NCBI GenBank assembly: GCA_014584695.1
Contig: JACTMI010000047.1
Span: 1 to 39,036 of the forward strand
Direction: 5' to 3'
DNA from: Acidobacteriota bacterium
GTDB lineage: Bacteria; Acidobacteriota; Thermoanaerobaculia; Multivoradales; JAGPDF01
DNA: 39,036 bases
Part shown: positions 1-26,494 of the stretch, piece by piece
Layout of the letters: every line of letters starts with the position of its first letter
How positions within the stretch are numbered: the stretch's first letter is position 1
Translations under genes and position numbers: made by a program
Notes under the pieces: generated by a model
Database searches by the model: none
The model's input: the letters and a program-made list of their open reading frames with translations, nothing else
What the model was told of the DNA's origin: nothing

Positions 1-3000
1 AGGCGGTTCTCGAAGTCCCAGGTGTAGGTGGCGCCGTCGGGGCCGGTCTTGCTGGTCTGGTTGCCGTTGGCGTCCCAGCCGTGGACGACCGCGTTCTCGG
101 TCAGCAGGCGGTCGCGGCTGTCGTGGGCGTAGGCGACGTCGAGCGGGGCGCCGGCGCCCTGCGTGCGCTCCTGGTGGAGGCGGTTGCCCACCGGGTCGTA
201 GGTGAAGCCGTTGCGCCAGGCCGTCGGCGCGTCCGACGCCGGGCCGGTGCGCACGTGCTCGTCGGTCAGCCGCGAGAGCAGGTCGTAGCCGTAGTGCCGC
301 GTGGTGCAGTGCCGCGTGGTGCCGTCCTGCTCGGTGATCCGCGTCCGCTGGCCGGTCGCGGCGAGCGTGTAGAGGTAGGAGACCACCGTGCCGGAGACAG
401 CGTGGACGGCGGTGAGCTCGCGCAGCCGGTTGCGGTTGTCGTGCTGGTAGCTCGTCGCGACGCCGTTCGGGTGGACGAGACTCGCCCGGTTGCCGTTCGG
501 ATCGTAGCCGTGGACGTAGACCCCGCCCGCCGGATCGGTCACCGTCTCCAGCCGGTTCAGCCCATCGTAGGTGAACGAGGTGGCGAGCGCCTGCCCGCCC
601 AGGAACGCGGTGAGCCCGGTCCGGTTCCCCGCCAGGTCGTACGTGAAGCCGAGGCTTCGGCCGTCCGGGTAGGTCAGGCCGGTCACCCGGTCCCGCGCGT
701 CGTAGTCGTAGCTCGTCGTCCCGCGCCCGTCGACCATCGTCGCCCGCCGCCCCGTCGCCGTGTAGGTGAAGGCGTGGAACGAGCCGTCCGGGTAGTTGCG
801 CCGCTGCAGACGGTTCGAGGCGTCGTAGAGGTAGTGCGTCGTCCGCCCGGCGAAGTCGACGCGGGTCCTGCGGTTGCCGACGGCGTCGTAGGTGAACCGC
901 TCCTCGGCGCCGTCGGGCAGGATCCGCTTCGTCTGCCGCCCCAGCGCGTCGTAGTGGAAGCGGGTGACGTGGCCGTTGGCGTCGGTCTGGGCCGTCCGGT
1001 TGCCCAGCTCGTCGTAGTCGTAGCTCGTCACCTGCCCCAGCGCGTCCGTGACCGCGGTCAAGCGACCGAGCGCGTCGTAGGTGAACTCGGTACGGACCCC
1101 CGCCTCGTCGATCTCCGCCGTCCGGCGTCCGAGCGTGTCGTACTCCGTGCGGCGCACGGTGCCATCCGGAAAGTGCGTACGAGTCAACCGGCCCGCGGCG
1201 TCGTGGACGAAGGTGGTCGTGAAGCCTCGCGGATCCGTGATCCCGGACTGGTTGCCCGCCGCGTCGTAGGCGAAGGTGGTGAGGTGGCCGAGGGCGTCCG
1301 CGATCGTCCGCCGGCGGCCGGCGGCGTCGTAGCCGTAGAGGGTCGCGAGGCCGCGGGGATCGATCGTCCGCTCCAGGCGACCGGCCGCGTCGTAGAGCTG
1401 CTCGACCAACGCGCCGTCGGGATACGTCGTCTTGTGCAGGCGCCCCGCCGCGTCGTACTCGAAGCTCGTCGTTCGGCCGGCGCGATCCCGGGCGCTGACC
1501 CGACGCCCCTCGGCGTCGTATCCGCTCTCCTCCCAGGTGCCGTCCGGAAGGTCGATCCGCACCTGCCGCCCGAGCTCGTCGTAGGCGATCTCGGTCCGCC
1601 GGCCCAGCGGGTCGACCGTCGCCGTCACCAAGCCGAGCGGGTTGTACTCGGTCGCCGTCAGGCTGCCGTCGGGCGCCGTGGTCTGGACCATGCGACCGGA
1701 CGCGTCGTAGGTGAAGGTGGTGACCAAGATCTCCGGGGTGCCGTCGCCGCGCGTCCGCGTGCGCGTCTCCGTGCGGCGGTTGCCCTGGGCGTCGTAGGTG
1801 TAGGTGGCGACCGACGCGCGCGCGTCGGTCTCGCGGATCAGGTTGCCACGGCCGTCGTAGACGAAAGCGGTCTCCGCCCCGAGCGGGTCGATCTCCGCGA
1901 GGAGGTTGCCGCGCGCATCGTAGGTGAAGCGGGTGAGCGCCCCCGCGGGATCGGTCGTCTGCAGCAGGTTGCCGCGGGCGTCGTAGGCATTCGTGGTGAC
2001 GCCGCCGCGCGGGTCGGTGGTGGTGAGGACGTTGCCCCGCGCGTCGTAGGTGAAGCTCGTCGCGTGGCCGAGCGGATCGGTGACCCGGGTCAGATTCCGC
2101 CCGGCGTCGTAGAGATAGAGCGTCGGCGGCAGCCCGCCGCTCGCCTCCGAGAGGAGCTGGTCGTCGCCGTCGAAGGTCCGGATGGTCGCGACCCCGCTCT
2201 CGTCGACCTCGCGCGTGACGTTGCCGCGCTGGTCGTACTCGAGCAGGCGCGAGGCGCCCAGGCGGTTGGTGACGATCTCCCGCCGCGCGGCGATCTGATG
2301 GTCGTAGACGATCTCGTGGCCGAAGGCGTCGACGTGCCGGAGGAGGCGCCCGTCGGGGCCGTACTCGTTGCGGATCGGCGTGCGCCCGAGCGGATCGACG
2401 ATCGACTCGAGATAGTGGCCGGGCAGGTAGCCGAACGTGGTCACCGCCGACGCGCGGTCGGTGACGGCGATCAGATCGCCATCGCCGTCGTAAGCGTAGA
2501 GCACCTGCTGCCCCGCCGGGTCGGTCAGACCGGTGACGCGTCCGAGACCATCCCGCTCGAGACTGATCGACGCCCCCGACGAATGGGTGATCGCCCCCGC
2601 CGAGAAGCTGATCGCGTTGCCGTTGGCGTCGGTGATCCGGGTGACGCCGGTGCCGCGCTCGAGCTCGAAGCGACGCCCGTCGCGGGTCGTCAGGCGCGCC
2701 CGCGGGGGATCGAACAGCTCCAAGCTATCCGTGTCGAGCAGGCGCGTGTCGGCGGTCGCCCAGAAAACGTTGCGGTTGCCGAGCACCTCGAGCGCGGCGC
2801 CGGGGACCGGGCCGTCGACGAACTGATAGCCGACGGCGGCGAAACAGCCGCCGACAGCGACCGCGAGTCCCGTGAGCACCGGCCGGAAGCGGTAGATCTC
2901 GCGGTCCGACAGGCGGACGGTGGTCAGGTGCGGCGCCAGCTCGATCGCCTGCTGGCAGGGGAGGAAACCGGCGGCGATCTGCCATGCCTCGCCGACCCGC

Positions 3001-4469
3001 CGGTTGTGCACCAGGCTCCCCTGGCGGATCTCCATCGTCCAGCCGAAGCCGAAATCGCCGCGCCGGTCCTGGCGCCGCGAATCGTAGGTGCGCAGCACCT
3101 GGATCGGCAGACCGGCGAGCGGCACCTCGAGATCGACGAAGGTGAGCGAGAAGTGCCCGATCTTCATCTGGCCGGCGACCAGCAGGTCGAGCACCCGCTC
3201 GGCGGTCCGGCCGACCGTATCGACCGCGAACAGCCGGAGCTCGTAGAGGCCGTTTTCGAGCAGCGTCGGGTCGAAGGTGCCGAGCGGAGAGGCTTCGACC
3301 GGCGTCGTGCCGGCGGCGAGCTCGATCCAGGGCGTGTCGCCTTCGGCGCGGTAGGCGAGCTGCCAGCCGGCCAGAGTCGGCGAGCGCACCGTACCGACGA
3401 CCGCCGTCGGCTCGGTCACCTCGGCGAGTTCGACCGGCGCCGCGATCGCGACCGTCGGGCCGTCGCTCGCGTTCGAGACCGTGAGCGTCGAGGCCTCGGT
3501 GACGTAGATCCAGTAGCCGCGGCCGGGGCGCAGCTCCGCCAGATCGTTGGCCCAGGTCGGCACCCCGACGCCGTGGACCTCCCACGGATCGGCCGGATCC
3601 GCGGGATCGAAGCCGAAGACGCGCAGGTAGCGGCCCGCGATCGAGGCGAGCGCCGCCTCGACCGGGCGGGGTGAAGAGCTGGGGAAGCCGACCAGGTTCC
3701 AGCCGACGCAGAGGGGAATCGCCGTCTCGACCGGCTCCGGCCCGGCCTCCGGCAGCGTCGCCGCCGCCGCGCCCTCGAGCCAGAAGCCGCGGGCCGGAGT
3801 GATCGCGGTGAGGTCGCTGGTGCCCGGGCTGGCGGGGTCCCAGAGTTTCCACGGGTCGGCCGCGTCACAGGCGTCGAAGGCGTAGGCACGGAGATAGGCG
3901 CCGGCGATCGGCGCCAGGACGGCCGCGGGAGACGGGTCGCCGGGTTCCCAGGAGATCGACAGGAGGTTCCACGCGGGCAGCACCGGCACGGAGACCTGGG
4001 CCGGCTCGCCCGCCGGCGCGATGGCGGCCGTCGCGCTCGCGCCGGTGCGCGCCAGGGAGAAGTCCGGGGGCAGGGGGGGCGGCGGGATTTCACGGCGCGG
4101 CGGCGCGGGCCGTTCGCGGATACCGAACGGATCTTCCGGATCGCGCGGCGGCTGAGACTCGGCGTTGGCGGCCGGATCCCGCCGTTCCCCGCCGCCGCGA
4201 TCGACGTCGGCCAGAGAGTCGAGCGCCCGCGCCAGGCCGCGCGCCGCCAAGATCGCCGAGGAGACGCGCGGCGAGCCCTCGCCCTCGGCGGCGAACCCGA
4301 GCTCGACCGGCAATCCGAGCCCCAGAACCGGCCCGGTGGGCAGCAGCGAGACGGCGAGCAGCAGCCGCGCCACGGCGCGGACGAGCGGACGATGCGTCGT
4401 GCGGTGCGGCGCCTTCGCCGTGCTGCTCCGACTTCGAGCGAAGCTCCCCGAACTCCTCCCAGCGAACAT
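1..4469 (-). CDS. RHS/YD-repeat secreted protein (C-terminus beyond window edge)
   Basis: The frame is open from the ATG at 4469 to the window edge, about 1489 codons, with no stop. After a basic N-terminus comes a hydrophobic stretch (LLLAVSLLPTGPVLGLGL) that looks like a signal peptide. Then come two copies of a WNL-type module (WNLLSISW and WNLVGFP, roughly residues 150-330), an Ig-like stretch, and an RHS N-terminal segment with the motif RTYDSRR near residue 460. From about residue 640 to the edge there are more than 30 YD repeats (FTYDARGN, YGYDAAGRR, FTYDALGRL and so on). RHS proteins are large secreted or surface polypeptides whose repeats form a hollow beta-cocoon holding a variable C-terminal, often toxic, domain. 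That C-terminal part lies outside the window, so toxicity cannot be judged. The ATG shares its A with the TGA of the giant upstream gene, implying translational coupling. No frameshift was seen where I checked the frame. Confidence 0.9.
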   Translation of the reverse strand, partial: MFAGRSSGSFARSRSSTAKAPHRTTHRPLVRAVARLLLAVSLLPTGPVLGLGLPVELGFAAEGEGSPRVSSAILAARGLARALDSLADVDRGGGERRDPAANAESQPPRDPEDPFGIRERPAPPRREIPPPPLPPDFSLARTGASATAAIAPAGEPAQVSVPVLPAWNLLSISWEPGDPSPAAVLAPIAGAYLRAYAFDACDAADPWKLWDPASPGTSDLTAITPARGFWLEGAAAATLPEAGPEPVETAIPLCVGWNLVGFPSSSPRPVEAALASIAGRYLRVFGFDPADPADPWEVHGVGVPTWANDLAELRPGRGYWIYVTEASTLTVSNASDGPTVAIAAPVELAEVTEPTAVVGTVRSPTLAGWQLAYRAEGDTPWIELAAGTTPVEASPLGTFDPTLLENGLYELRLFAVDTVGRTAERVLDLLVAGQMKIGHFSLTFVDLEVPLAGLPIQVLRTYDSRRQDRRGDFGFGWTMEIRQGSLVHNRRVGEAWQIAAGFLPCQQAIELAPHLTTVRLSDREIYRFRPVLTGLAVAVGGCFAAVGYQFVDGPVPGAALEVLGNRNVFWATADTRLLDTDSLELFDPPRARLTTRDGRRFELERGTGVTRITDANGNAISFSAGAITHSSGASISLERDGLGRVTGLTDPAGQQVLYAYDGDGDLIAVTDRASAVTTFGYLPGHYLESIVDPLGRTPIRNEYGPDGRLLRHVDAFGHEIVYDHQIAARREIVTNRLGASRLLEYDQRGNVTREVDESGVATIRTFDGDDQLLSEASGGLPPTLYLYDAGRNLTRVTDPLGHATSFTYDARGNVLTTTDPRGGVTTNAYDARGNLLQTTDPAGALTRFTYDARGNLLAEIDPLGAETAFVYDGRGNLIRETDARASVATYTYDAQGNRRTETRTRTRGDGTPEILVTTFTYDASGRMVQTTAPDGSLTATEYNPLGLVTATVDPLGRRTEIAYDELGRQVRIDLPDGTWEESGYDAEGRRVSARDRAGRTTSFEYDAAGRLHKTTYPDGALVEQLYDAAGRLERTIDPRGLATLYGYDAAGRRRTIADALGHLTTFAYDAAGNQSGITDPRGFTTTFVHDAAGRLTRTHFPDGTVRRTEYDTLGRRTAEIDEAGVRTEFTYDALGRLTAVTDALGQVTSYDYDELGNRTAQTDANGHVTRFHYDALGRQTKRILPDGAEERFTYDAVGNRRTRVDFAGRTTHYLYDASNRLQRRNYPDGSFHAFTYTATGRRATMVDGRGTTSYDYDARDRVTGLTYPDGRSLGFTYDLAGNRTGLTAFLGGQALATSFTYDGLNRLETVTDPAGGVYVHGYDPNGNRASLVHPNGVATSYQHDNRNRLRELTAVHAVSGTVVSYLYTLAATGQRTRITEQDGTTRHCTTRHYGYDLLSRLTDEHVRTGPASDAPTAWRNGFTYDPVGNRLHQERTQGAGAPLDVAYAHDSRDRLLTENAVVHGWDANGNQTSKTGPDGATYTWDFENR

Positions 4470-7400
4470 CAGAGCGATCTCCTTCCGAGCAGAACCAGCG
4501 CCGCGACGGCGAGCGCGAGCGCCAGCAGGATCAGCATCCGGCGGTCGAGCGCCGGGATCTCGACGATCGCGAGCGGCGCGACCGCGACCTCGAACTCGCA
4601 GCTCGCCGTGAGCCCGACGGCGTCGACCGTCGAGCAGACGACCAGCGTCGTCCCCGCCGGGAAGAGCGATCCGGGCTCCGGCTGGCAACCCTGGGTCACT
4701 TCCGGGCAGTTGTCCGTCGCCGCCGGCGCGACGAACTCGATCGGCCAGGAGAGCGCCCCCGGCGGCACCTCGACCCGCAGATCGGCCGGGCAAGCGGCGA
4801 GCGCGGGCGGCTCCTGGTCGACGACGGTGACCTCGAGCGTGCAGGCGACCGGCGCTGTCGAAGCGGTGCAGGTGACGACGGTCGTCCCGACGGGGAAGAA
4901 GGCACCCGACGGGGGCTCGCAGACGACCGGCCCGCACTCGCCCTGCGGCGCCGGTACCGGCAGCGTGACCGCGGCGCCGCAGAGCCCCGGGTCGTTCGGC
5001 AGCAGCAGCGACTCGCCGCACTCGAGCGCGCAGGCGACAGCGTCGTCATCCAGGATCGTCACCAGGCCGCTGCCGTCGGCGATCTCGGCCAGGACGGCGC
5101 TCGAGAGCTCGACGCGGAACGTCTCGTCCTCCTCGGCCTCCTCGTCGCCGACGATCTCGACCACGATCTGCGCCACGGTCTCGCCCGGGGCGAGCTCGAG
5201 CGTGCCGGCTGCGGGCAGGAAGTCGACCTCCGGGGTCGCGCTCTCGCCCACGGTCGTGTAGTCGACCGTGACCGTCGCCGTGTGGGCCACCGAGAGGACG
5301 ACTTCGAGCGTCACCACCGTCGTGCCGTCGTCGCCCTCCTCGACCGTGGCGTCGCCGATCGAGAGAAACGTCGGATCCTCGTCCGTGATCGTTCCCCAAG
5401 CCTCGGCCACCGGCAGCTCAGCGCCCTGCGGGTTCGCGAGCAGCAAGCGCACGGTCTCCGGTAGCTCGGGCAGCGCGTCGTCCAAGGTCACGACCGCGAT
5501 CGTCGCGCTGGTCTCGAAGGGCGCGAAGACGAGGACGCCGGCTGCCGCCACGTAGTCGCTGCCGCCCACGGCGGTGCCGTCGGCGGTGGCCCACTCGACG
5601 CTGACCGGCAGCGCGCTCGGCGCGCTCGACGAGACGACGAAGAGCAGCGGCGCTCCCTCCTCGGCGAGCGCGTCGGCCGCGACGAGTGTGGTCGAGTCGT
5701 CGTTGAGCAGCGTCGCGAAGGCCTCGGCGGTCTCGAGGAACAGGAACATCGGGGAGGCGAGGACGAGCCGGAAGCTCTCGTCGAGCTCGACGACCTGGTC
5801 GCCGACCGCCTCGACCACGATCTGCGCGGTCGTTTCGCCCGGGGCGAAGGTCAGGGTGCCGCTGGCGGGGAGGAAATCCTCGCCCGCCACGGCGGTCCAG
5901 CTCTCGGCCGACCAGGCGACGCTCGACGGCAACTGGGCCGGCCGATCCAGCGTCAGCTCGAAGACGACGGGGGTCGTGCCGGAGTCACCCTCGGGCAGGG
6001 CGACCGCAGCGACCGAGAGCCGGGGGTGAACGTAGACCGGGACCCGGGTCGGATCGGCCGGCGCGGGGGTCGTCGGATCGTCCGAAAGCAGCGTGTCGAT
6101 CTCGGTCGCCACCACGGTCGCCTGGTTCGCGACCTCCTCGAGCCCGGGCGGCAGCTCCGCGGGGAGTGCCGTGGTGAAGGCGAGGGTCACCGTGTCGCCG
6201 ACCGCGAGCTGATCGAGCGCGACGAGCACCGGATCGAAGCCTACGACCGTTCCCTGAGTCGTGACGATCGAGCCGGCGACGAGCGCGAGCGGCGGCGTGA
6301 TCGGGTCGGAGATCACCACCCCGCTCACGCTGCGCTGGCCACCGACCGCAAGCTCGACGGTCCATGCGATCTCGTCGCCCGCGGTGGCGACGCCGTCGCC
6401 GTCGTGGTCGAGCAGCGTCGCGCTCTTGGTCAGAGCGAGGGCCGGCGAGGCCTCGACCGGCGTCCGGGTCGGGTCGGCCGGCCCGGGCAGGTCGGGGTCG
6501 TCGGTGGGGATCGGCGGCAGCTCGAGGCTCGAGACGACGCCGCTGTTGACGATCTCGTGGACGCCGGCCGGCAGCGGCTGGACGACCTCGACCGCGAACT
6601 GCACCAGCACCGAGGCGCCGGGGGCCAGGCGAGGGATCTCGGCGACGACTGGATCCTCGCTCACGATCAGCAGCTCGGGCCCGGCGCTCCCCGGCACGAT
6701 CGCGGTGTGCGCCGGGATCGGATCGGTCAGCACCAGTCCGGTCGCCTCCTCGGCGCCCTGGTTCGCGATCTCGATCCGGTAGAGAATCCAGTCCCCCGGT
6801 CCGACCCGCCCGTCGCCGTCGCGGTCGATGGCCTCGTCGGTCTTCGACGCCGTGAGGTGCGGCGGCGAGGTCAGCACTTCGACCGTGAGCGCATCGCAGC
6901 CGCTGCCGCCGTCGTCGTCCTCGACACAGACCGTGACGGCATAGGTGCCCGGGGAATCCCACCGGTAGCTGCCCAGTACGATTCCGCTACCGGCGTCCTC
7001 TTCGACCTGCACCGGCGTCGTGGCGCCGTCTCCCCATTCGGCGGAGGCGACGTGGAAGTCGAGCCGGCCCGGGTCGGTGAAGGTCGCGAGCGGCAGCGTC
7101 GTGGCGACGCCCGCGATCGCCCAGGTGTCGGGCGCGGCGTCGACCACCGGCGGGAGATTCAGCACCAGCAGCGGGAAGCGGCCGCAGCCGAGCCCCGCGT
7201 CGTCGTCCTCGACACAGACGCCGATCGAGTAGGCACCGTCGTCGAAGTAGTCGTGCGGACCGACAACCAGGCCGAAGCCCTCGTTCGTCGAGATCTCACC
7301 GGAGGTCACGGCGCCGTCGTCCCAGTCGATCGTCGCCTGGTGGGTGTCGTCCCAGCCTAGGTCGGCGAACGCCGCCTGGAGATCGAAGCGCTCCCCCTCG

Positions 7401-10400
7401 TACTGGGCCGACAGGCCGAGCACGAAGCCCCGATACTGCACGTTGCCCTGGGAGAAGTTGTAGAAGCCGAAGTTCCCGGCCGGGAAGCTCCCCGTGAGGT
7501 CGAACTCCAGCACGCCGTCGACCCAGATGCGCAGCGTGTCCGGCTGATACTCGAACCGGAAGTGGTAGTCGCGCCCGGCGAACCAGCGTGCATCTCCGAG
7601 GGTCGCGCCGCGGGCCAGCTCTTCGATGCCGTTCTCGGGGCCGTTGGCGGGGTAGTTCACATGGTCCCAGAGCTCTCCGGAGCTGACGATGCCGAAGACC
7701 CGGCTGACCGCCAGACCTCGACGCGCGGCCGACTGGTTGTTCCCCTTCCAATCGATCAGGATGTACTCGGCCTGCGGGTTCTCCGAGTCGCCGCTCGCGA
7801 AGCCGAGGACGAAGCCGATGAAGTCGTCGTCGGAAGTCGACTGCACGCGGAGAATGCCCTCCAGGAAGGTGCCGAAGGCCGGCAGGGGGCTCAAGTAGAT
7901 CGACGGGCGACTGTTGACCGTCTGGGTGACCGACAACCCGTTCGCCGCCACGACCCAGCTCGACGCTGGTTGACTGTGCGGGTACTCCTCCTTGGGCCAG
8001 CCACCCAGGTGGACGTTGCCCGGTTCGACCACGTGCGGCGGGGCGTTCGCGATCGTCGCGACGGTCGAGGCGCAGCCCGTGTTCCCGGCGGCGTCGGTGA
8101 CACAGACCTCGATCGGGAACAGGCCGTCGTCGCGGTAGGTGTGGCGCAGCGTCATGCTGCTCCCGGTTCCGGTCGGGATGCTGAGAGTGGCCGGCTCCAC
8201 GGTGCCGTCGCCCCAATCGACGGTGCCGGTGTGCGCCTCGCCGGGTGTCGTGTCGGCCCAGCGCGCGCCGGTCAGCGTGAGCAGCGTCCCCTCGACCCCC
8301 GCCGGCGCGGCCGGCAGGGTCACGATCGGCGTCACGGCATCCGAGAGGCGGAGCGGGACCGACGCGAAGTTGTTGCCGGGATTGCCATCGGGGCCGCTCG
8401 CGGGGCTGGAGGTGACGACCGCCGCGTTGGTGACGATGGCGCCGTAGGGGACGGTCGCCGGGACCTCGGCCACCAGCGTGCGTGTGGTGCTGGCCCCCGG
8501 GTTGAGGTTGTTCGGGGTCCAGGTCACCGTGCCGCCGGCGTGGACGCCGCTGCCGCTCGCCGAGACGAAGATCAAGGGCTCCGGCAGGTGGTCGACCAGG
8601 GTGATCCCGGAAGCCGGCAGGGTCCCGAGGTTGTCGACGCGCAGGGTGTAAGTGACCCGCTGGCCCGGCCGCGCCTCGGCGACCGAGAGGCTCTTCGAAA
8701 CCGCCAGGTCGAGCAGCCGGGCGACCAGCGTGACTTCGGTCCCCCGGCAGTCGGTGCCGCCATCGCCGTCGTCGACACAGAGACGGATTAGGTAGGTCCC
8801 GGCTCCGAGATAGAGGTGCGAGCCCGAGATCGTGCCGGCTCCCGCGCCCTGAGCCACGCTCGCGGCCTCCACGGTGCCGTCACCCCAGTCGACCGTCGCG
8901 CTGTGCTGGTCGAGCACGCCGGGATCGGTGAAGCTGGTGCCGTCGAGGGTGACCGGGTTGACGAAGAAACCCGTCGTGCCGACGGCCAGCTGTAGCGAGG
9001 GCGGCAGGTTCTCGATGAAGCCAGGAATCGTCCGACAGGCCGAGGCGCCATCATCGTCGGTGACGCAGACGACGACTTCCGGCGTGCCGTCGTCGAGATA
9101 GACGTGGCTCGCCAGGACCTCGCCCCAACCCTCTTCCTCGGCGATCGGCGCCGGGCCGGAGTGGCCATCTCCCCAGTCGACCTGCGCCGTGTGGGTGTCG
9201 GCGATCCCCGGATCGGAGAAGTGGGCGCGCAGGATCGCCTCCTGCCCCTCGACGCCGACCACGGAGAGCGTCGTCTGGTGGGCGGTGAACACCGCGCCCG
9301 CCTGCGAGTAGTCGTAGAGCGCCAGCCGCCCGGCCGGAAAGCTGCCCGCCTGATCGAGCTCGAGCGTGCCATCGACCCAGACCCGGAGCCGCGTCGCCGA
9401 GGACTCGACGCGGAATCGATAGTCGGTGTGCCGAGCCCAGCCGACCTGGCCGAGCGTGGCGGCCCGCGCGAGCTCGACCAGGCCGTTGCCCGGGCCGTTG
9501 GCGGCCTGATCCGTGTGGAGCCAGAACTCCGCCGCGGTCGGCGTGCCGAAGACGCGCGAGAGAGCGAGCCCGGGCCGCGCGCCGTCCTGGAAGCCGCGCT
9601 TCCAGTCGAGCAGCAGATACGAGGCGCCCGGATTCGACCGATCGCCGGGCACGAAGCCGAGCCCCAGGCCGACGTAGTCGTCGTCGCCCACGTCGGCGAC
9701 CCGCAGCGTGATCTCGTACTCGCCATAGGAGGGCAGGGTGCCAACGAAGAAGGCGGGGGCGCCGTTGTGGCGCTGGATCACCGTCCGGCCGCTGCCGGAG
9801 ACATCCCAACGCGTGGTCGTGCTCCCCGGCGCCTCTTCGACCACCCAGCCGTCGAAGGCGAACTCGGTCGACTCGGGGATCTCCGGGGCGGCATTGGCGA
9901 TCAGGGCCGGAATCGCCAGGCAGACCGGCGGCGCGCTGCCATCGCTGACGCAGACGCCGACCTCGAAGCTGCCGTCGTCCGGGTAGACGTGGCTGCCGAG
10001 AAGCGTCCCCGCCACGACCGGCACGCTCTCGACCGTGCCGTCGCCCCAGTCGACCGTCGCGGTCAGCTCGTCGCCCGGGTCGGTCGCGGTGACGCCGGCG
10101 AGGGACAGCGGGCTCCCCTCGATGCCCTCGAAGAGCGGCGGCGCGGTGACGACCGGCGGCTCGTTGCCGATCTCGGCCGTGGTCTCGTCGACGTCGCTCT
10201 CACCCGAGTCGTCGGTGACCCTGAGGCGCACGACGTAGAGCCCCTCCCCCGGCGGCAGCCAGCTGACGACGGCCCCCGAAGCGTCGTCGAAGAGCCCGTC
10301 GGCGTCGAGGTCCCAGAGGTAAGAGACGATGGTGCCGTCGCGATCGAACGAGCCGCTGCCGTCGAGCGCGAGCGGCACTCCTTCGGGGCCGAAGTAGGGT

Positions 10401-13400
10401 CCGCCGGCGTCGGCCCGCACCGAGGTCACGGCGTCGACGTCCACGGCGACGTTGTTGGCCGGCGTCGGATCGGGTCCCTGCCCGCCGTCGTCGGTGACGC
10501 TCGCCGTGTTCGCGATCGAGGTCACGCCGAGCGGGATCGCCGGATCCACCTGAAGCGTCAGGGTGCGGACCGCGCTCGTCCCCGAGGCGAGGGCGAAGGG
10601 GGGCCAGGTCACCATGCCGCCGGCTGGGAAGCCGCCGTCGCTCGCCGCCACGAACAGCGTGTGGGCCGGCAGCGCGTCGGTGACCGCGACGCCGGTCGCG
10701 GTGCCGGGGAAGGCGTTGTGCACGGTGATCGCGTACGTCACCGTGTCGCCGGGACCGACCGAGGCCGTGCCGTCGTCGAGCGTGATCCAGAGCCCGAGCG
10801 AGGCGAGGTCGTAGCCGGTCGAGACCCGGTTGTTGCCTTCGTCGCACTCGCGCTCCCGCCCGGCGCCGGTGCCGTCGTCGTCGGCCACGACCGTCAGGAT
10901 GCCGGTCGGGGCGGCCGGCAGGGCAAAGGCGCCGGTCAGCTCGACGAACGCTCCGGCCGCGAGCCGGCCCGGGAGGGTGAGCACTCCCAGCAGCGCGCCG
11001 GTCTCCGGCTCGCCCTCGTAGAAGGCGACCGGCAGCCCCGGACCGACCGTCACGGCGCCGCCGTTGCCGATCCGGACCGAGACGCCGAGCAGCGGCAGCG
11101 CCGCGGGATCGATCACCAGCCGACTCGCCGTCAGGTCCGGGGAGGCCCCGGCACCCACCGGCGGCGGCACGTTGGCGCGGAAGCTGTTGTGGGTGAGCCA
11201 GCTCCACTCGGGGCTCGCCGGGACGCTCGAATCCCCCCGCACCAGCTCCGGCAGGTAGGCGTGCTGATTCCAGATCGGGCGCGCCGGCACCCAGCCGTCG
11301 CCGGCGTCGCCGAGCACGAACAGGCCGGCGGTCCGCTCGCCTGCGGGGATGCCGACGTCGGGGGCGCGGTCCGAGGTGACGACGATCTCGGCGTTGCCGT
11401 CCCCGTCGACGTCGGCCACGACCGGCTGCTCGGTCCAGGTGTTCGACGACAGCGTCCACTCCGCGAGCACCGCGCCGTCGGTGCCTCGATAGACGCGCAG
11501 GCGCCGCTCGTCGCGGTAGACGATCTCGAGCCGGCCGTCGCCGTCGAAGTCGAAGCTGGTCGAGCCGGTCAGGTTCGAGCTGTAGTCCTGGGTCGGCGCC
11601 TGCCAGAGCAGCGTGCCGTCGGTGTCGAAGACGGCGTAAGCGTCGGAGCCGGCGACGCCGATCTCGGGCCAGCCGTCGCCGTCGAAGTCCCCCACGGTGG
11701 GGGCGCCGCCGGCCTCGGGGTCGGTGCCGGGCAGCGCGACCGGCCCCCAGAGCAGCGTGCCGTCAGTGTCGTGGAGACGGATTGTGCCGCGCGCGACGAC
11801 CACGATCTCGGCCTCGGAATCGGCGTCGAAGTTCGCGACTGCAGGGTAACCGTCGGGCAGCGGCGACTGCCAGACGATCGTGCCGTCGTGCCGGTAGAGC
11901 GTGTTGCCGGTGACCACTTCGAGTCGGCCGTCGAGGTCGACGTCGGCGACGGCCGAGATCGCGCCGCCACGATCGCCCGAGTTGCCCGAGGACTGGAACG
12001 CCTGGCCGCCTGCTCCCACCCAGCGCAGGTGGCCATGGCGGTCGAAGACGTGGGCACCGACGATGATCTCGACTTCGCCGTCGCCGTCGAGGTCGCCCAG
12101 GGTCGGATTGTCGCGGTTCGACAGCCCGGTCGGGCTCGGGTGAGTCCTGTAACCCTGGCTCACCCACTTGAGGGCGCCGGTGTGCTCGTAGGCGCGCAGG
12201 AAGTTGATCGGCGCCGGACCGAAGGTGGTCGAGAGGATCTCGGGCTTGCCGTCGTGGTCGATGTCGCCGGCGGCGAGGCCGGAAAAGGAGAGCAGCGTTG
12301 GCGCGGTCGGGTGCGGGAAGAAGCCGTTGACGTCGAAGATCGGCGCGCCGGTGTCCCCCCGGATCGCGCGCAGCGCCACCTGGGGTTCGAGCAGGTAGGT
12401 CAGATCGACGGTGACGAAGACCAGGTCGGCGACGTCACGCTCGTCGTAGAGGCCATCGCCGTTGTCGTCGGTCAGCTGGAGGACGAGCGGCGTCGACAGC
12501 GAGTCGATGGCGCGCGGGAACGCGATCGTGCCGCCCGCGGGAGGCCAGCGCAGCTCGACTCGCGGGGAGAAGGGCGCGGCCGTCGGCGCCGTGACGCAGG
12601 CCGCGGCGGTGTCGGCGACGTTGTTCGTCTCGTCGAGCTCCGGGACCTCGAGCGCGCCGTCCGCCATCGCGAACAGGCGTTCGCCGACGAAGCGCGCGAG
12701 GCCGACGACGGGGACGGTCAGAACCTCGACCGCGCCCGCGGCGAGGCCGCCTTGCCGGAAGGTGCCCAACACGGCGTCGCCGCTTCCCAGCGCGCCGTCG
12801 CCGTCGAGGTCCTGGAACAGGACGAGATCGAACGGCGTGGCCGCGAGCGTCCCGCGGTTGGCGAGCGAGACCGCCGCCTCGCCGCTGATTCCGAGCGTCT
12901 GCGGGTCGATCGTCACCGCGGCGGCGGAGACGAGGTCGAGCGCGAGGTCGGCGCCGTGGAGCACCTCGTCGAGATCGGTCGCGGCGTTGTCCGTGGCGTC
13001 GAGATCGGGTCCGTTGGCGCCGTCGTCCAGCGCGCTCGCCACGTCGGCGAGCTCGGCAACCGCGGGATCGAGCGAGGCCGGCAGACGCACCGTAACGGCG
13101 CGCTCGAAGGCGATTCCAGCGGCGAGCTCCACCGCCGGCCAGGTGACCCGTGCGCCGGCGCGGGCGCCGCCGTGGCTCGCCGAGTAGAACTCGACTCCTG
13201 CCGGCAGGTCGTTGGTCAGCACCACGCCCGTCGCCCCCTGGGTTCCCACGTTTTCCACCCGGATCCGGTAGATCAGCGTTTCGCCCGGGCGGACCTGCTC
13301 CCGGCCGTCGCTCAGCGTGACGCGCAGGTCCGGAGCGGCGAGCAGTTGATCGACGTCGGTCGCGTGGTCGTTGGTCGGGTCGGGGTCGGCTCCGGTGGCG

Positions 13401-14161
13401 CCGTCGTGGTGGACTTCGGCGGTGGTCGCGAGCTCTTCTTGCCCGGCCGGGAAGCTGCTCGCGAGCTGGAGCTCGAAGGTCCGCGTCGCGATCGCCCCGT
13501 CGGCGAGCGTGAAGGGGGGCCAGACCACCCGGCCCGCCTGGAGGACGCCGCCGTCGCTCGCCGCGACCAGCGCGGTCCCGGGCGGCGGAACGGCCTCGAG
13601 CGCGGTGCCCTGCGCGGCGCCGGGGCCGTGGTTGGTGACGGTGACCGTGAAGGCGACGCTCTCGCCCGGGCTCGCCGTCGAGACGCCGTCGGTGATCGCG
13701 ACGCCGAGATCGGGGCCGGCGCCGGCTTCGAGATCGAGCGGCGTGTAGTCCCCGGCATGCCAGATCGAGGTCGCGGCCGGCGCGCCGCCGACTCGCAGCT
13801 CGAAGCTCGCCCCTTCGACCGGCCCCTCGATCTCCGGGGTGTCCGGCCGGTCGCCGGGCACGTCGAGGCGGTAGCGCGCGACGCCGTCGTCGGCGAAGAC
13901 GGCGCTCGCCGCCACCAACTGGCCGCCGCTCCAGGCCGAGACCACCGTGCCCGCGGGCGCCGGCTCGCCCGCCACCTGGACGGCGCCGAACCGGCTCGAA
14001 GGCAGGGGTGGAGCGTCGGCTTGCACGGCGCCCGAGGCGAAGGCGGCCAGGGCGAGGAGGGCGGCGGGCAGGGGGAGGGGGCCGCGCGATGCCGCGCCGA
14101 CGCGCGAGCGCGCAGGGCGCGGGGCGAAGCGAGAGACTCCAGATGGGGCAGCACGACGCAC
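4469..14161 (-). CDS. Giant secreted multidomain surface protein (DUF11, FG-GAP, PKD, TSP-C-like, Calx-beta, HYR; IPTL-like anchor)
   Basis: 3230 residues from a GTG at 14161, preceded by a GGGAGGGA Shine-Dalgarno. A signal peptide is visible (LPAALLALAAFASGAVQA, near residues 31-48). In order: DUF11 repeats (about 155-400; motif TVTVTNHGPG), CARDB-like segment (about 410-520), FG-GAP/VCBS-type beta-propeller with DGDG calcium loops (about 540-965; GDLDGDGEVEIIVG), more DUF11, and PKD-type repeats (DWGDGTVE). Two thrombospondin-C-terminal-like domains follow (about 1427-1645 and 2044-2265), with further DUF11 (about 2430-2700), three Calx-beta repeats (about 2720-3040) and HYR-like repeats. 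It ends with IPALDRRMLILLALALAVA and a basic tail, resembling an IPTL-CTERM sorting/anchor segment. It is probably exported and held at the cell surface; a role in adhesion or matrix is inference. It is the first gene of a pair with the RHS protein. Confidence 0.92.
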   Translation of the reverse strand: MRRAAPSGVSRFAPRPARSRVGAASRGPLPLPAALLALAAFASGAVQADAPPLPSSRFGAVQVAGEPAPAGTVVSAWSGGQLVAASAVFADDGVARYRLDVPGDRPDTPEIEGPVEGASFELRVGGAPAATSIWHAGDYTPLDLEAGAGPDLGVAITDGVSTASPGESVAFTVTVTNHGPGAAQGTALEAVPPPGTALVAASDGGVLQAGRVVWPPFTLADGAIATRTFELQLASSFPAGQEELATTAEVHHDGATGADPDPTNDHATDVDQLLAAPDLRVTLSDGREQVRPGETLIYRIRVENVGTQGATGVVLTNDLPAGVEFYSASHGGARAGARVTWPAVELAAGIAFERAVTVRLPASLDPAVAELADVASALDDGANGPDLDATDNAATDLDEVLHGADLALDLVSAAAVTIDPQTLGISGEAAVSLANRGTLAATPFDLVLFQDLDGDGALGSGDAVLGTFRQGGLAAGAVEVLTVPVVGLARFVGERLFAMADGALEVPELDETNNVADTAAACVTAPTAAPFSPRVELRWPPAGGTIAFPRAIDSLSTPLVLQLTDDNGDGLYDERDVADLVFVTVDLTYLLEPQVALRAIRGDTGAPIFDVNGFFPHPTAPTLLSFSGLAAGDIDHDGKPEILSTTFGPAPINFLRAYEHTGALKWVSQGYRTHPSPTGLSNRDNPTLGDLDGDGEVEIIVGAHVFDRHGHLRWVGAGGQAFQSSGNSGDRGGAISAVADVDLDGRLEVVTGNTLYRHDGTIVWQSPLPDGYPAVANFDADSEAEIVVVARGTIRLHDTDGTLLWGPVALPGTDPEAGGAPTVGDFDGDGWPEIGVAGSDAYAVFDTDGTLLWQAPTQDYSSNLTGSTSFDFDGDGRLEIVYRDERRLRVYRGTDGAVLAEWTLSSNTWTEQPVVADVDGDGNAEIVVTSDRAPDVGIPAGERTAGLFVLGDAGDGWVPARPIWNQHAYLPELVRGDSSVPASPEWSWLTHNSFRANVPPPVGAGASPDLTASRLVIDPAALPLLGVSVRIGNGGAVTVGPGLPVAFYEGEPETGALLGVLTLPGRLAAGAFVELTGAFALPAAPTGILTVVADDDGTGAGRERECDEGNNRVSTGYDLASLGLWITLDDGTASVGPGDTVTYAITVHNAFPGTATGVAVTDALPAHTLFVAASDGGFPAGGMVTWPPFALASGTSAVRTLTLQVDPAIPLGVTSIANTASVTDDGGQGPDPTPANNVAVDVDAVTSVRADAGGPYFGPEGVPLALDGSGSFDRDGTIVSYLWDLDADGLFDDASGAVVSWLPPGEGLYVVRLRVTDDSGESDVDETTAEIGNEPPVVTAPPLFEGIEGSPLSLAGVTATDPGDELTATVDWGDGTVESVPVVAGTLLGSHVYPDDGSFEVGVCVSDGSAPPVCLAIPALIANAAPEIPESTEFAFDGWVVEEAPGSTTTRWDVSGSGRTVIQRHNGAPAFFVGTLPSYGEYEITLRVADVGDDDYVGLGLGFVPGDRSNPGASYLLLDWKRGFQDGARPGLALSRVFGTPTAAEFWLHTDQAANGPGNGLVELARAATLGQVGWARHTDYRFRVESSATRLRVWVDGTLELDQAGSFPAGRLALYDYSQAGAVFTAHQTTLSVVGVEGQEAILRAHFSDPGIADTHTAQVDWGDGHSGPAPIAEEEGWGEVLASHVYLDDGTPEVVVCVTDDDGASACRTIPGFIENLPPSLQLAVGTTGFFVNPVTLDGTSFTDPGVLDQHSATVDWGDGTVEAASVAQGAGAGTISGSHLYLGAGTYLIRLCVDDGDGGTDCRGTEVTLVARLLDLAVSKSLSVAEARPGQRVTYTLRVDNLGTLPASGITLVDHLPEPLIFVSASGSGVHAGGTVTWTPNNLNPGASTTRTLVAEVPATVPYGAIVTNAAVVTSSPASGPDGNPGNNFASVPLRLSDAVTPIVTLPAAPAGVEGTLLTLTGARWADTTPGEAHTGTVDWGDGTVEPATLSIPTGTGSSMTLRHTYRDDGLFPIEVCVTDAAGNTGCASTVATIANAPPHVVEPGNVHLGGWPKEEYPHSQPASSWVVAANGLSVTQTVNSRPSIYLSPLPAFGTFLEGILRVQSTSDDDFIGFVLGFASGDSENPQAEYILIDWKGNNQSAARRGLAVSRVFGIVSSGELWDHVNYPANGPENGIEELARGATLGDARWFAGRDYHFRFEYQPDTLRIWVDGVLEFDLTGSFPAGNFGFYNFSQGNVQYRGFVLGLSAQYEGERFDLQAAFADLGWDDTHQATIDWDDGAVTSGEISTNEGFGLVVGPHDYFDDGAYSIGVCVEDDDAGLGCGRFPLLVLNLPPVVDAAPDTWAIAGVATTLPLATFTDPGRLDFHVASAEWGDGATTPVQVEEDAGSGIVLGSYRWDSPGTYAVTVCVEDDDGGSGCDALTVEVLTSPPHLTASKTDEAIDRDGDGRVGPGDWILYRIEIANQGAEEATGLVLTDPIPAHTAIVPGSAGPELLIVSEDPVVAEIPRLAPGASVLVQFAVEVVQPLPAGVHEIVNSGVVSSLELPPIPTDDPDLPGPADPTRTPVEASPALALTKSATLLDHDGDGVATAGDEIAWTVELAVGGQRSVSGVVISDPITPPLALVAGSIVTTQGTVVGFDPVLVALDQLAVGDTVTLAFTTALPAELPPGLEEVANQATVVATEIDTLLSDDPTTPAPADPTRVPVYVHPRLSVAAVALPEGDSGTTPVVFELTLDRPAQLPSSVAWSAESWTAVAGEDFLPASGTLTFAPGETTAQIVVEAVGDQVVELDESFRLVLASPMFLFLETAEAFATLLNDDSTTLVAADALAEEGAPLLFVVSSSAPSALPVSVEWATADGTAVGGSDYVAAAGVLVFAPFETSATIAVVTLDDALPELPETVRLLLANPQGAELPVAEAWGTITDEDPTFLSIGDATVEEGDDGTTVVTLEVVLSVAHTATVTVDYTTVGESATPEVDFLPAAGTLELAPGETVAQIVVEIVGDEEAEEDETFRVELSSAVLAEIADGSGLVTILDDDAVACALECGESLLLPNDPGLCGAAVTLPVPAPQGECGPVVCEPPSGAFFPVGTTVVTCTASTAPVACTLEVTVVDQEPPALAACPADLRVEVPPGALSWPIEFVAPAATDNCPEVTQGCQPEPGSLFPAGTTLVVCSTVDAVGLTASCEFEVAVAPLAIVEIPALDRRMLILLALALAVAALVLLGRRSL

Positions 14162-15285: not shown

Positions 15286-17450
15286 GGAACTCCGGCCTCT
15301 ACCTCCTGCTCGTCAACCCGCACGGCCTGGTGCGCGGGCACGACCTCGAGCTCGGCCGCGACGCCGACACCGGCGGTCAGACCAAGTACGTCGTCGAGCT
15401 CGCGCGGGCGCTGGCCGAAGACCCGCGCGTCGAGCGGGTCGATCTCGTCACCCGCCGCGTCGTCGATCCCCGGGTGAGCTCCGATTACGCCGCCGCCGAA
15501 GAGGAACTCGCGCCGCGCGCCCGGATCGTCCGCCTCGACTTCGGCCCCCGCCGCTACCTGCGCAAGGAGAGCCTCTGGCCCCACCTCGATCTGTTCACCG
15601 ACCGGATCCTCGGCCACCTGCGGCGGCTGCGCCGCCTGCCCGACGTGATCCACAGCCACTACGCGGACGCCGGCCGCGTCGGCGCGAAGCTCGAGAGCCT
15701 GCTCGGCGCGCCGCTCGTCCACACCAGCCATTCCCTCGGCCGGGTCAAGCGCGAGCGGCTGCGCGAGCAGGGCATCGCCGACGAGGAGATCGAAGAGCGC
15801 TTCCGGATGACCACCCGGATCGAGGCCGAGGAGCGCGCGCTCGACCACGCCGCGCTGGTCGTCGCCAGCACCCGCCAGGAAGTCGAAGAGCAGTACGCGC
15901 TCTACGAGAACCATCGTCTGCCGCGGACCGCCGTGATCCCGCCCGGCACCGATCTGTCGCGCTTCCGCCCCCCCGCGGCCGGCGAGCCCGAACCGGCGAT
16001 CGCGGCGGCGATCGACCGCTTCCTGGTCGAGCCGGGCAAGCCGCTGGTGCTGGCGATCGCGCGCGCCGATCCGCGCAAGAACCTGGTGGCGCTGGTCGAG
16101 GCTTTCGGTCGCAGCGCGCGGCTGCGCGCGCTCGCCAACCTGGCGATCGTCGCCGGCACCCGCGAGGACCTCGAGGAGATGAAGCGCGAACCGCGCCGCG
16201 AGCTCTCGCGGCTGCTGGCCGCGATCGACCGCTTCGACCTCTACGGCCACGTCGCCTACCCCAAGCAGCACGCGCCGCAGGACGTGCCCGACCTCTACCG
16301 GCTGGCGGCGCGCCGCCGCGGCCTGTTCGTCAACCCGGCGCTCACGGAGCCGTTCGGATTGACGCTCATCGAGGCGGCGGCGAGCGGGCTGCCGGTGGTC
16401 GCGCCGCTCGACGGCGGCCCGCGCGACATCCTCGAGGCGTGCGGGCACGGCGAGCTCGTCGATCCGACCGACAACGACGCGCTCACCGCCGCGATCGAGC
16501 GCGGCCTGACCGATCGCGAGCTCTGGAACGAGCGCTCCTGGCGCGGCGTGGAGGGCGCGCGGAAGCACTACCGGTGGGCGAGCCACGTCGAGCGTTACCT
16601 CGCCCGGGTGCTCGAGCTCGAGCCGGAGCGCGATGCCACCCGCGGCGCCCCGCCGCGGCTGCCGCTCCACGACCGCCTGCTGGTGAGCGACATCGACGGC
16701 ACGCTGATCGGCGACCGCGAAGCGCTGGCCGAGCTGCTCGCGGAGCTCGCCCGCCGCGGCTGGGGTTTGGGCATCGCCACCGGCCGCCGGCTGGAGAGCG
16801 CCGTCGAAGTGCTCGCCGGGTGGGGCGTGCCGGCGCCCGACCTGCTGATCACCGCGGTCGGGGCCGAGATCCACTACGGGGCGCGGCGGCTGGCCGACGC
16901 GTCGTGGTCGCGCCATCTCGACTACCGCTGGCGGCCGGAGGAGATCCGCCGTCTCCTGCTCGACGAGCTGGCGGGCCGGCTGACCCTGCAGGCGGAAAGC
17001 GAACAGCGCCGCCACAAGATCAGCTTCGACGTCACGGGTCGCGGTCTGCCCTCCGTCCCGGCGCTCCGTCGGATGCTGCGCGAGCGCGGGTTGCACGCCC
17101 ACCTGGTGCCCTCCCATGGCCGCTATCTGGATGTCCTGCCGATCCGCTGCTCGAAAGGGCTCGCGCTGCGCTGGGTCGCCCAGCGCTGGGAGATCCCGCT
17201 CGAGTCGATCGTGGTGGCCGGCGACTCCGGCAACGACCGCGACATGCTGACCGGCGCGACCCCCGCGATCGTGGTCGGCAATCACGCCGAAGAGCTCGCC
17301 GACCTGGCCGAGCGGCCGCGCGTCTACTTCGCCCGGGGCGCGTGCGCGGCCGGCATCCTCGAGGGCCTGCGCGCGCTCGAGCGCGCCACCCCGGAGCCGC
17401 CGCGGGAAGGACCCGATGCCGCGGCGGCGCCGCCCCCGCAGGAGAGCTGA
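15282..17450 (+). CDS. sps: Bifunctional sucrose-phosphate synthase / sucrose-phosphate phosphatase
   Basis: 722 residues from the ATG at 15282, which overlaps the kinase stop. An upstream extension of this frame lies inside the kinase gene and is not real. The N-terminal part (about 1-450) is a GT-B, GT4-family glycosyltransferase: LVNPHGLVRGHDLELGRD with DTGGQTKYVVELARAL near the start, HTSHSLG in the middle, and the donor-site motif ALTEPFGLTLIEAAASGLP (about 350-368). The C-terminal part (about 465-705) is a HAD-family phosphatase of the sucrose-phosphatase type: catalytic DIDGT with D470 and D472, and the late motif GDSGNDRDML (about 647-656). The fused enzyme would join NDP-glucose and fructose 6-phosphate to sucrose 6-phosphate and then hydrolyse it to sucrose. 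It sits between the sugar kinase and sucrose synthase in the same operon. Confidence 0.93.
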   Translation: MRNSGLYLLLVNPHGLVRGHDLELGRDADTGGQTKYVVELARALAEDPRVERVDLVTRRVVDPRVSSDYAAAEEELAPRARIVRLDFGPRRYLRKESLWPHLDLFTDRILGHLRRLRRLPDVIHSHYADAGRVGAKLESLLGAPLVHTSHSLGRVKRERLREQGIADEEIEERFRMTTRIEAEERALDHAALVVASTRQEVEEQYALYENHRLPRTAVIPPGTDLSRFRPPAAGEPEPAIAAAIDRFLVEPGKPLVLAIARADPRKNLVALVEAFGRSARLRALANLAIVAGTREDLEEMKREPRRELSRLLAAIDRFDLYGHVAYPKQHAPQDVPDLYRLAARRRGLFVNPALTEPFGLTLIEAAASGLPVVAPLDGGPRDILEACGHGELVDPTDNDALTAAIERGLTDRELWNERSWRGVEGARKHYRWASHVERYLARVLELEPERDATRGAPPRLPLHDRLLVSDIDGTLIGDREALAELLAELARRGWGLGIATGRRLESAVEVLAGWGVPAPDLLITAVGAEIHYGARRLADASWSRHLDYRWRPEEIRRLLLDELAGRLTLQAESEQRRHKISFDVTGRGLPSVPALRRMLRERGLHAHLVPSHGRYLDVLPIRCSKGLALRWVAQRWEIPLESIVVAGDSGNDRDMLTGATPAIVVGNHAEELADLAERPRVYFARGACAAGILEGLRALERATPEPPREGPDAAAAPPPQES

Positions 17451-17452
17451 CG

Positions 17453-25206: not shown

Positions 25207-26396
25207 GCGCCCGCCCCCGCCAGCGGGACGCCGCGGTCGCCGACCGGCCGCGCCAGGCGCCGGCCGGCGGCGCGCAGGACGAGCTCGGCCGGCGAGACGC
25301 GCTCGATCTCGACCTCGACCACGCCCGGCAGGCCGTGCTCGAGCGGAATCAGCGTCGAGGTCGCCGGCGTGAGCTCGAGCTCGACCCGGATGCGGCCGCG
25401 CTCGAGCTCGCTGGCGACCGCGGTGACGGTCGCCGCGACGGTGCCGAACTGCGCCCAGGAGAAGCCCTCCAGCCGCAGCCGGGCCGGCTGCCCCGGCCGC
25501 ACCCGGCCGAGCGCGGTCGCCGGGGCGAAGCTCGCCACGATGCGGACGCCACCGGGCGGGACGATCGCGCCCAGCCGCTCCCCCTCGTCGACCACCGCGC
25601 CGACGCGCAGCTCGGCCATTTCGCCGACCCGCCCGGCAACCGGCGCGCGCAGCTGGCGGCGGTCGACTTCGTGGGCCAGTCGCGCGACCGCCGTCGTCGT
25701 CGCCGCCGCGCGCCCCTCGAGCTCGGCGAGCGCCCCTTCGAGCGCCGCGATCCGGGCGCGGCGGTCCTCGACGCTCACGCCGAGGTCGCGCTCGAGCCGC
25801 GCCACCGCGAGGCGCTGGCCCTCGACCGCGGACCGACTCCGGCTCGCTTCGGCACGGGCGCGCAGCGCCTCGAGCTCGGCCGCCATGCCGGCTTCGAGCA
25901 ACCGCTCGATCCGCTCCGCCTCCTGCGCGGCGAGCGCCGCCACCGCCTCGGCCTCGCGCACGCGGGCGCGCGCTTCGTCGCGCGCCGCGCGCCCGCCGTC
26001 GAGCTGCGCGGCGAGGGCGCGTCGTTCGACCGTCACCTCGCCCGCGAGCGCTTCGAGCTGGGCCGCGAGGGTCGAGATCTGGCGCCGCTCCTGCTCGAGC
26101 CGCAGGCGCTCCGGCTCGGCGTCGAGCTCGACCAGGACCTCGCCCGCCTGCACTTCCAGACCGAGCTCGAGGCGCGAGGAGACGATCCGGCCGAGCACCG
26201 GCGAGGCGATGGGGTGCGCGGCGGCGGCAGCTTCGAGCCGCGCGCTCTCCGACAGCTCGTAGAGCGGCAGCTCCGCGGCGAGGAACCAGACCAGCCAGAC
26301 GGCGACGAGCGCCGCGGCGACGGCGAAGGCCACGAGCGACGGACGGAAGCCGTCGGTGTCGAGCGAGCGCAGCGTCCGGTCGAACGGCGTCGGCAC
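25203..26396 (-). CDS. HlyD-family membrane fusion / adaptor protein
   Basis: 397 residues from a GTG at 26396 with a very strong purine-rich ribosome site upstream; longer versions of this frame are shadows. After a short cytoplasmic start there is one membrane helix (SLVAFAVAAALVAVWLVWFL, about 20-40). Next comes a lipoyl-like half-domain (HPIASPVLGRIVSSRLELGLEVQ), a long coiled coil of Glu/Arg/Ala-rich heptads (about 90-225), the second lipoyl half (LRAPVAGRVGEMAELRVGAVV) and a beta-barrel region. HlyD adaptors link an inner-membrane ABC exporter to the outer membrane. It is translationally coupled to the C39-ABC gene. The expected outer-membrane TolC-type partner is not in the window and may be encoded elsewhere. 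Confidence 0.92.
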   Translation of the reverse strand: MPTPFDRTLRSLDTDGFRPSLVAFAVAAALVAVWLVWFLAAELPLYELSESARLEAAAAAHPIASPVLGRIVSSRLELGLEVQAGEVLVELDAEPERLRLEQERRQISTLAAQLEALAGEVTVERRALAAQLDGGRAARDEARARVREAEAVAALAAQEAERIERLLEAGMAAELEALRARAEASRSRSAVEGQRLAVARLERDLGVSVEDRRARIAALEGALAELEGRAAATTTAVARLAHEVDRRQLRAPVAGRVGEMAELRVGAVVDEGERLGAIVPPGGVRIVASFAPATALGRVRPGQPARLRLEGFSWAQFGTVAATVTAVASELERGRIRVELELTPATSTLIPLEHGLPGVVEVEIERVSPAELVLRAAGRRLARPVGDRGVPLAGAGA

Positions 26397-26397
26397 G

Positions 26398-26408
26398 TCC
26401 CTCCTCCT
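26398..26408 (-). promoter_or_regulatory. Strong ribosome binding site of the HlyD gene
   Basis: On the minus strand AGGAGGAGGGA lies just upstream of a GTG at 26396. It decides this start over the many upstream in-frame codons. It is far stronger than sites at the coupled genes downstream, suggesting that this start sets translation for the whole export module. Confidence 0.8.
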
Positions 26409-26434
26409 CTTCGAGCTGAACCGCGGGCGGGCGG

Positions 26435-26440
26435 ATTGTA
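26435..26440 (-). promoter_or_regulatory. Possible internal -10 element (TACAAT) before the HlyD gene
   Basis: The 98-base gap between the TPR and HlyD genes contains TACAAT (five of six matches to TATAAT) about 40 bases before the start, but no good -35 box. The same gap starts with a GC-rich imperfect hairpin. A secondary promoter or processing site for the exporter genes is possible. Confidence 0.25.
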
Positions 26441-26494
26441 GCCGCTCGGAGCACCGCTTCGGCCCGCGCCGCCCGCCCCGGCGGCGGGCTCGGC

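Follow-up and report, generated by a model that had tools for sequence, protein, structure and literature searches.

The giant gene at positions 4469–14161 (minus strand) of the window, the whole stretch of 39,036 nucleotides from an Acidobacteriota genome that was analysed here, encodes a protein of 3230 aa with two domains which profile searches and structure models assign to TSP_C (PF05735). TSP_C is the calcium-binding lectin-like domain at the end of the thrombospondins, which are animal matrix proteins. With a probability of roughly 0.6 we take the giant protein to be an exported and exosortase-sorted matrix adhesin, in which a propeller would hold on to exopolysaccharide and the TSP_C domains would make calcium-dependent contacts to the outside.

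Two TSP_C domains in the giant protein

The frame starts with GTG, is open over its 3230 codons, and its GC content at the three codon positions (0.72/0.52/0.92) is coding-like. The first-pass annotation had given frame and length correctly; the strand, which it did not name, is minus, and all parts of the protein mentioned below lie on it. At the N-terminus a probable signal peptide was recognized by eye (aa 1–48, 14018–14161), consisting of a hydrophobic core followed by AVQA/D. The FG-GAP propeller (aa 536–996, 11174–12556) is assigned by Pfam and by homology to the Bap1 propeller (PDB 6MLT). In total Pfam finds six stretches of DUF11, six of PKD_4, five of FG-GAP_3, three of Calx-beta, two of TSP_C, and one each of CARDB and HYR. 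The top-scoring repeats are aa 1250–1327 for PKD (10181–10414), aa 1818–1935 for DUF11 (8357–8710) and aa 2943–3040 for Calx-beta (5042–5335), and the HYR domain covers aa 3114–3194 (4580–4822). PKD repeats, a beta-propeller and Calx-beta domains had been read from the sequence at first pass and are each matched by Pfam; DUF11, CARDB, HYR and a C-terminal tail resembling a sorting signal are additions to that reading.

The TSP_C profile PF05735 matches two stretches of the giant protein (E 7.6e-13, 49.1 bits at a cut-off of 25.6). In the profile search of the genome contigs the copies reach 32.3 and 23 bits, the latter score rising to 27.6 when its neighbours are included, and both were flagged as over the cut-off. 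Because the Pfam alignment covers no more than the initial third of either copy (positions 2–77 and 3–60 of 198), relatives were needed to show the remainder. A contig search with copy 2 gave 60 loci, and an HMM built from these loci scores copy 1 (aa 1428–1642, 9236–9880) with 184 bits and copy 2 (aa 2044–2258, 7388–8032) with 229 bits. These bounds lie within 7 residues of those first proposed (1427–1645 and 2044–2265), and the motifs quoted with them are those of copy 1. Nearly every locus contains one or two full domains, the exception being L063, whose contig begins within the domain. After weaker matches below 100 bits had been dropped, 65 domains from the loci were aligned with the two giant-protein copies, and Pfam TSP_C matches all 67. 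The profile of these 67 domains finds human TSP-1, TSP-2 and COMP with E-values from 1.2e-31 to 7.7e-29 over positions 22 to 203–206 of 219; the next match, a levanase module, has an E-value of 0.098.

The AlphaFold model of copy 2 (mean pLDDT 91.9, Foldseek E 1.8e-11) has its best PDB matches in TSP-2 (2RHP, Z 25.7), COMP (Z 25.3), TSP-1 (1UX6, Z 24.7) and again TSP-2 (1YO8, Z 23.9), with 196–203 residues aligned at an rmsd of 2.4–2.5 Å. Copy 1, modelled within its PKD neighbours (pLDDT 93.2, pTM 0.76), matches the thrombospondin structures with Z 24.1 to 22.4. For both copies thrombospondin C-terminal structures are the four best matches, at an rmsd of 2.0–2.5 Å; they lead CBM66, which follows as the next fold (Z 18.3 for copy 2 and 17.6 for copy 1), by about 5 Z units. 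L-type lectins (VIP36, ERGIC-53) share the fold of copy 2 with Z 13.5 to 14.3, well below the thrombospondins. The two thrombospondin-C-terminal-like domains postulated by the first-pass annotation are borne out by the profile search as well as by the predicted structures, and aa 1428–1642 and 2044–2258 are TSP_C domains. Pfam, the 67-domain profile and the structure matches rule out that the motifs agree by chance or that the fold is another one.

That the structures next after the thrombospondins are fructan-binding CBM66 modules (Z 18) and other glycan-active jelly rolls would also suit a nutrient-capture protein, whose TSP_C domains would be carbohydrate-binding modules that capture polysaccharides from the surroundings, to be taken up or digested, and do not glue cells into a matrix. 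A Ruminiclostridium protein of the type S-TSP_C-(fn3)4-CBM is indeed listed among cellulosomal proteins (PMC5256962). We nevertheless regard nutrient capture as unlikely, since neither the giant protein nor the directly adjoining genes yielded a catalytic domain or a transport gene, and since the propeller resembles that of a matrix adhesin.

In TSP-1 the DDD motif D1001–D1003 of the lectin-like domain coordinates calcium and is needed for, and controls, matrix deposition (PMC6526912). Counting along the profile alignment, these residues fall on D72–D74 of the copy 2 query, that is aa 2111–2113 of the giant protein (7823–7831); in copy 1 the aligned motif is found at aa 1493–1495 (9677–9685). 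DDD is present in 67 of 67 aligned domains, both giant-protein copies included, an invariance which is inflated because SDDDFIGF was one of the six peptides used for retrieval. The glutamine aligned with Q1027 of TSP-1 is present in 65 of them. In a sample of 20 domains found by Pfam and counted by eye, 14 have DDD, four DND, one neither and one is cut, and here the Pfam TSP_C model itself may favour domains with DDD. This sample excludes repeats of earlier loci and includes loci from 6 of 27, 6 of 10 and 1 of 1 genomes with matches. Judged from the alignment, the calcium residues of TSP-1 are kept in both copies, each of which has a putative calcium site.

Distribution and domain context among bacteria

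According to record titles and tree labels, proteins with TSP_C occur in at least ten bacterial phyla. Those named are Acidobacteriota, Pseudomonadota, Chloroflexota, Planctomycetota, Myxococcota, Bacteroidota, Bacillota, Cyanobacteriota, Actinomycetota, Thermodesulfobacteriota and Hydrogenedentota. PF05735 is rare even in the protein's own phylum, with 2 of 297 Acidobacteriota genomes (its own included), which speaks against the matrix-adhesin reading. Counted with their centre genomes, 8 of 398 genomes in the Pseudomonadota and 10 of 246 in the phylum of the planctomycete L030 have a match, while the single match among 247 genomes in the phylum of Aequorivita L031 is the centre itself. Fourteen control genomes gave no PF05735 match in any phylum run, and phages gave no match to copy 2. 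TSP_C is much more common in the phylum of the Myxococcales locus L037 (27 of 235 genomes, centre included) than in the other sampled phyla.

A quick tree was calculated from 79 domains, leaving out L070 (the same as L007), L076 (weak) and L073 (which looked the same as L072). The three human sequences are found on one long branch (100) with a length of 1.59 on either side of the root, which was placed on this human branch, and several long branches were flagged. Without an independent root the tree gives no direction of a transfer between bacteria and animals. The giant-protein copies stand beside those of the Acidobacteriota locus L006 (93, below the starred level). The L006 protein, from Acidobacteria MAG HKST-UBA06, has 47% identity to the giant protein over 2468 aa and two TSP_C domains, and by these sequence features it is its ortholog, with a conserved architecture. 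Downstream of its propeller, L004 keeps this domain order and has additional domains.

Six proteins contain 11 TSP_C domains with the N-x-P start of a PKD/Ig-like repeat before them and the FxDxGxxD...WGD core after them (two each in the giant protein, L004, L006, L012 and L015, and one in L010). This suggests that TSP_C is nested in one PKD repeat, between its first two strands. The nesting stays an assumption, because the model of copy 1 has no first PKD strand ahead of TSP_C. By eye, a similar arrangement in a different type of repeat is seen in L003, L055 and L061.

Relatives of copy 2 were also found on 15 plasmid records, nine of them annotated as traN. A tenth TraN record, AP026557, encodes a protein that is identical to TraN of pVb1762 and annotated as hypothetical. 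In pVb1762 TraN (1441 aa, L064 3889–8214) Pfam recognizes F_T4SS_TraN and, at residues 716–892, TSP_C. Comparison with IncHI TrhN gives two homologous pieces, 318–695 and 906–1438, which are separated by about 210 residues including TSP_C in pVb1762 TraN, but by 15 residues in TrhN. Compared with IncHI TrhN, TSP_C in pVb1762 TraN is thus a clean insertion. The literature describes TraN as a putative adhesin on which the specificity of exclusion depends (PMC11493245). With TSP_C in them, some TraN variants may recognise recipients via a lectin-like head. Except for TSP_C in some Vibrio-group proteins, the F-type TraN (pVb1762 TraN, IncHI TrhN) and the giant protein are unrelated. The presence of TSP_C in an adhesin of the mating pair is independent support for a role in contact. 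On a Photobacterium plasmid (L065) type VI secretion genes are followed by an IS6 transposase and then by the gene of a TSP_C protein annotated as 'Ig-like'.

Nested among Ig-like repeats and with calcium-binding Calx-beta repeats alongside, the TSP_C domains might be structural spacers only, in which calcium stiffens a passive rod that has no ligand. We hold this for very improbable, because in many small secreted proteins TSP_C stands alone and spaces nothing, and because it is inserted in the adhesin TraN.

Proposed sorting and matrix binding, and the adjoining RHS gene

The tail of the giant protein (4478–4558) consists of IPALD, a hydrophobic helix and RR, and scores 19.1 bits over all 27 positions of the IPTL-CTERM model TIGR04174, just under the cut-off of 20.5. 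Nine other IPTL-CTERM tails in the same genome pass this cut-off, exosortase H (XrtH, TIGR04177) is found there with 118.6 bits at a cut-off of 86, and Poly_export is present as well. Like PEP-CTERM/exosortase and IPTL-CTERM/XrtH proteins, the giant protein combines a probable N-terminal signal with an IPTL-CTERM-like C-terminal tail of motif, helix and basic residues, and has XrtH in its genome; in contrast to the IPTL-CTERM/XrtH proteins its tail lies slightly below the cut-off of the model.

Similar tails are frequent among the relatives. By a regular expression for the C-terminus, 23 of the 60 loci are PEP-CTERM-like (9) or VPxPA/G-like (14), and most of these encode proteins of 240–300 aa with little beyond signal peptide, TSP_C and tail. 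An exosortase match at E 1e-3 or better was obtained in 25 of 30 genomes tested. For this test 23 genomes were counted as PEP-type, namely 21 of the regular expression set (L043 and L045 were left out) plus L008 and L025, which were added by eye. A strong full-length match (E 9.3e-38 or better) is present in 21 of these 23, and none was found in the genomes of L027 and L038. Among the seven other genomes, those of L006, L004 and L031 have weaker matches, that of L012 has one below the cut-off, and those of L052, L037 and L030 gave none. PEP-CTERM goes together with exopolysaccharide genes (PMC1569441), and a PEP-CTERM protein has been linked with flocculation (PMC9850573). Through the TSP_C domain a group of uncharacterised PEP-CTERM proteins gains a function that can be tested.

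The propeller matches 6MLT with E 1.6e-42 and 149.4 bits in two stretches which cover both halves, and this is the only PDB match at 1e-3. The propeller of Bap1 and RbmC is eight-bladed and of the FG-GAP type. General FG-GAP kinship may be the source of the match. The giant protein shares with these Vibrio cholerae proteins a homologous FG-GAP propeller, separate lectin-type domains and, probably, export; however, it is about five times longer than the crystallised Bap1 chain of 613 residues, and in place of the beta-prism of Bap1 it has TSP_C, PKD, DUF11, Calx-beta, HYR and the C-terminal tail. A beta-prism was not found in it by Pfam, and residues 245–446 of 6MLT have no counterpart in the alignment. 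The structure 6MLT is Bap1 without a 57-residue loop (PMC8295476), and the Bap1 propeller is reported to bind the exopolysaccharide VPS, with the other domains facing the environment (PMC10102183).

Mainly because a Bap1-type propeller is here combined with TSP_C in the place of the beta-prism, we propose the following for the matrix adhesin. The protein would be exported by its signal-peptide-like N-terminus, and with its tail processed by XrtH it would be retained in the layer of exopolysaccharide. Its PKD and DUF11 repeats, which are Ig-like, may form a long rod, with the two L-type lectin-like TSP_C domains lodged at the starts of PKD repeats. The propeller would bind matrix polysaccharide as that of Bap1 does, and calcium at the DDD site would hold the two TSP_C jelly rolls in shape. 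These could then make the second contact, to a glycan or protein of a neighbouring cell, a surface or the matrix, so that the plan would be the 'double-sided tape' of Bap1/RbmC with thrombospondin-type lectins replacing the beta-prisms. The term 'calcium-dependent adhesion scaffold' in the first-pass annotation fits the kept calcium-site residues, the Bap1-like propeller and the sorting system; binding and calcium dependence, like the ligand and the function in general, we infer from this anatomy.

Directly downstream lies a gene for an RHS/YD-repeat protein (3–4469, minus strand), whose 3' end is off the contig, as base 1 of the window is also base 1 of the contig. The protein has an N-terminal hydrophobic stretch and 15 RHS repeat stretches. 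Its ATG overlaps the stop codon of the giant gene (TGATG), so both proteins are probably translated together. The planctomycete locus L030 (5946–11858) combines TSP_C with following RHS repeats in one chain, and the pairing therefore occurs at least twice. Both observations would fit a giant protein which, with its coupled RHS protein, serves contact-dependent recognition or antagonism between cells and uses the TSP_C domains as recognition heads. We give little credence to such a partnership, since the RHS protein runs off the contig before its C-terminus, so that an effector domain cannot be seen, and among the genes of the window no secretion gene of that type was recognized. Furthermore, a scan of the collected loci detected three or more YD motifs only in the window and in L014, although it missed the repeats of L030.

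Upstream and divergent from the giant gene are a pfkB-type sugar kinase gene and, shortly after it on the same strand, a bacterial sucrose synthase gene (16439–19864, plus strand). The stretch 20366–26754 (minus strand, GC 76–79%) contains two adjoining ABC-transporter frames, one of which carries a peptidase C39 domain; several further open frames that overlap in this stretch are probably spurious.

Relation to the animal thrombospondins

The domains of TSP-1 (1UX6), TSP-2 (1YO8/2RHP) and COMP (3FBY) and the bacterial copies share the same fold of about 190–200 residues, whole-domain sequence homology, the DDD motif, a WKQxxQ segment and an SQ near the end. However, the thrombospondin domain ends a signature unit, whereas bacterial TSP_C sits in PKD repeats or alone, and PKD precedes both copies of the giant protein. 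Pfam finds neither EGF-like domains nor type 3 calcium repeats in it (E up to 1), and this lack rules out the giant protein as a member of the thrombospondin family proper. The kinship with thrombospondins is one at the domain level only.

The occurrence of TSP_C in bacteria is not new as such, since the Pfam model finds it and a proteome from the Clostridium group lists one such protein (PMC5256962). In the open-licence part of PubMed Central we found no literature on bacterial TSP_C as a group. TSP_C is listed among the domains that originated in Choanozoa (PMC6792448). Thrombospondins are held to have arisen at the common base of choanoflagellates and animals, and the DDD motif is proposed to have debuted within animals (PMC6526912); the main text of the latter paper never uses 'bacteri' or 'prokaryot'. 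With the same domain and motif present across many bacterial phyla, an animal or choanoflagellate origin becomes directly testable, and a domain that counts as part of the animal matrix equipment turns out to be a surface module widespread among bacteria as well. One tentative and rather doubtful idea is that TSP_C with its DDD switch is an old bacterial module for retention in the matrix, with which bacteria of many phyla kept exported proteins in exopolysaccharide and in cell-cell contacts such as mating pairs, and which the choanoflagellate/animal line acquired from bacteria. If this were true, the matrix-deposition mechanism of thrombospondins would predate animals.

As far as can be judged by eye, L014, L018, L022 and L029 have a Cys-rich repeat, then TSP_C and then Asp-rich repeats of the calcium type, which is the reverse of the animal order. 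Thus in some relatives (L018, L022, L029) the Asp-rich repeats come after TSP_C, whereas in animals they come before it. The Cys-rich repeat is confirmed by Pfam (DUF4215) in L018 only.
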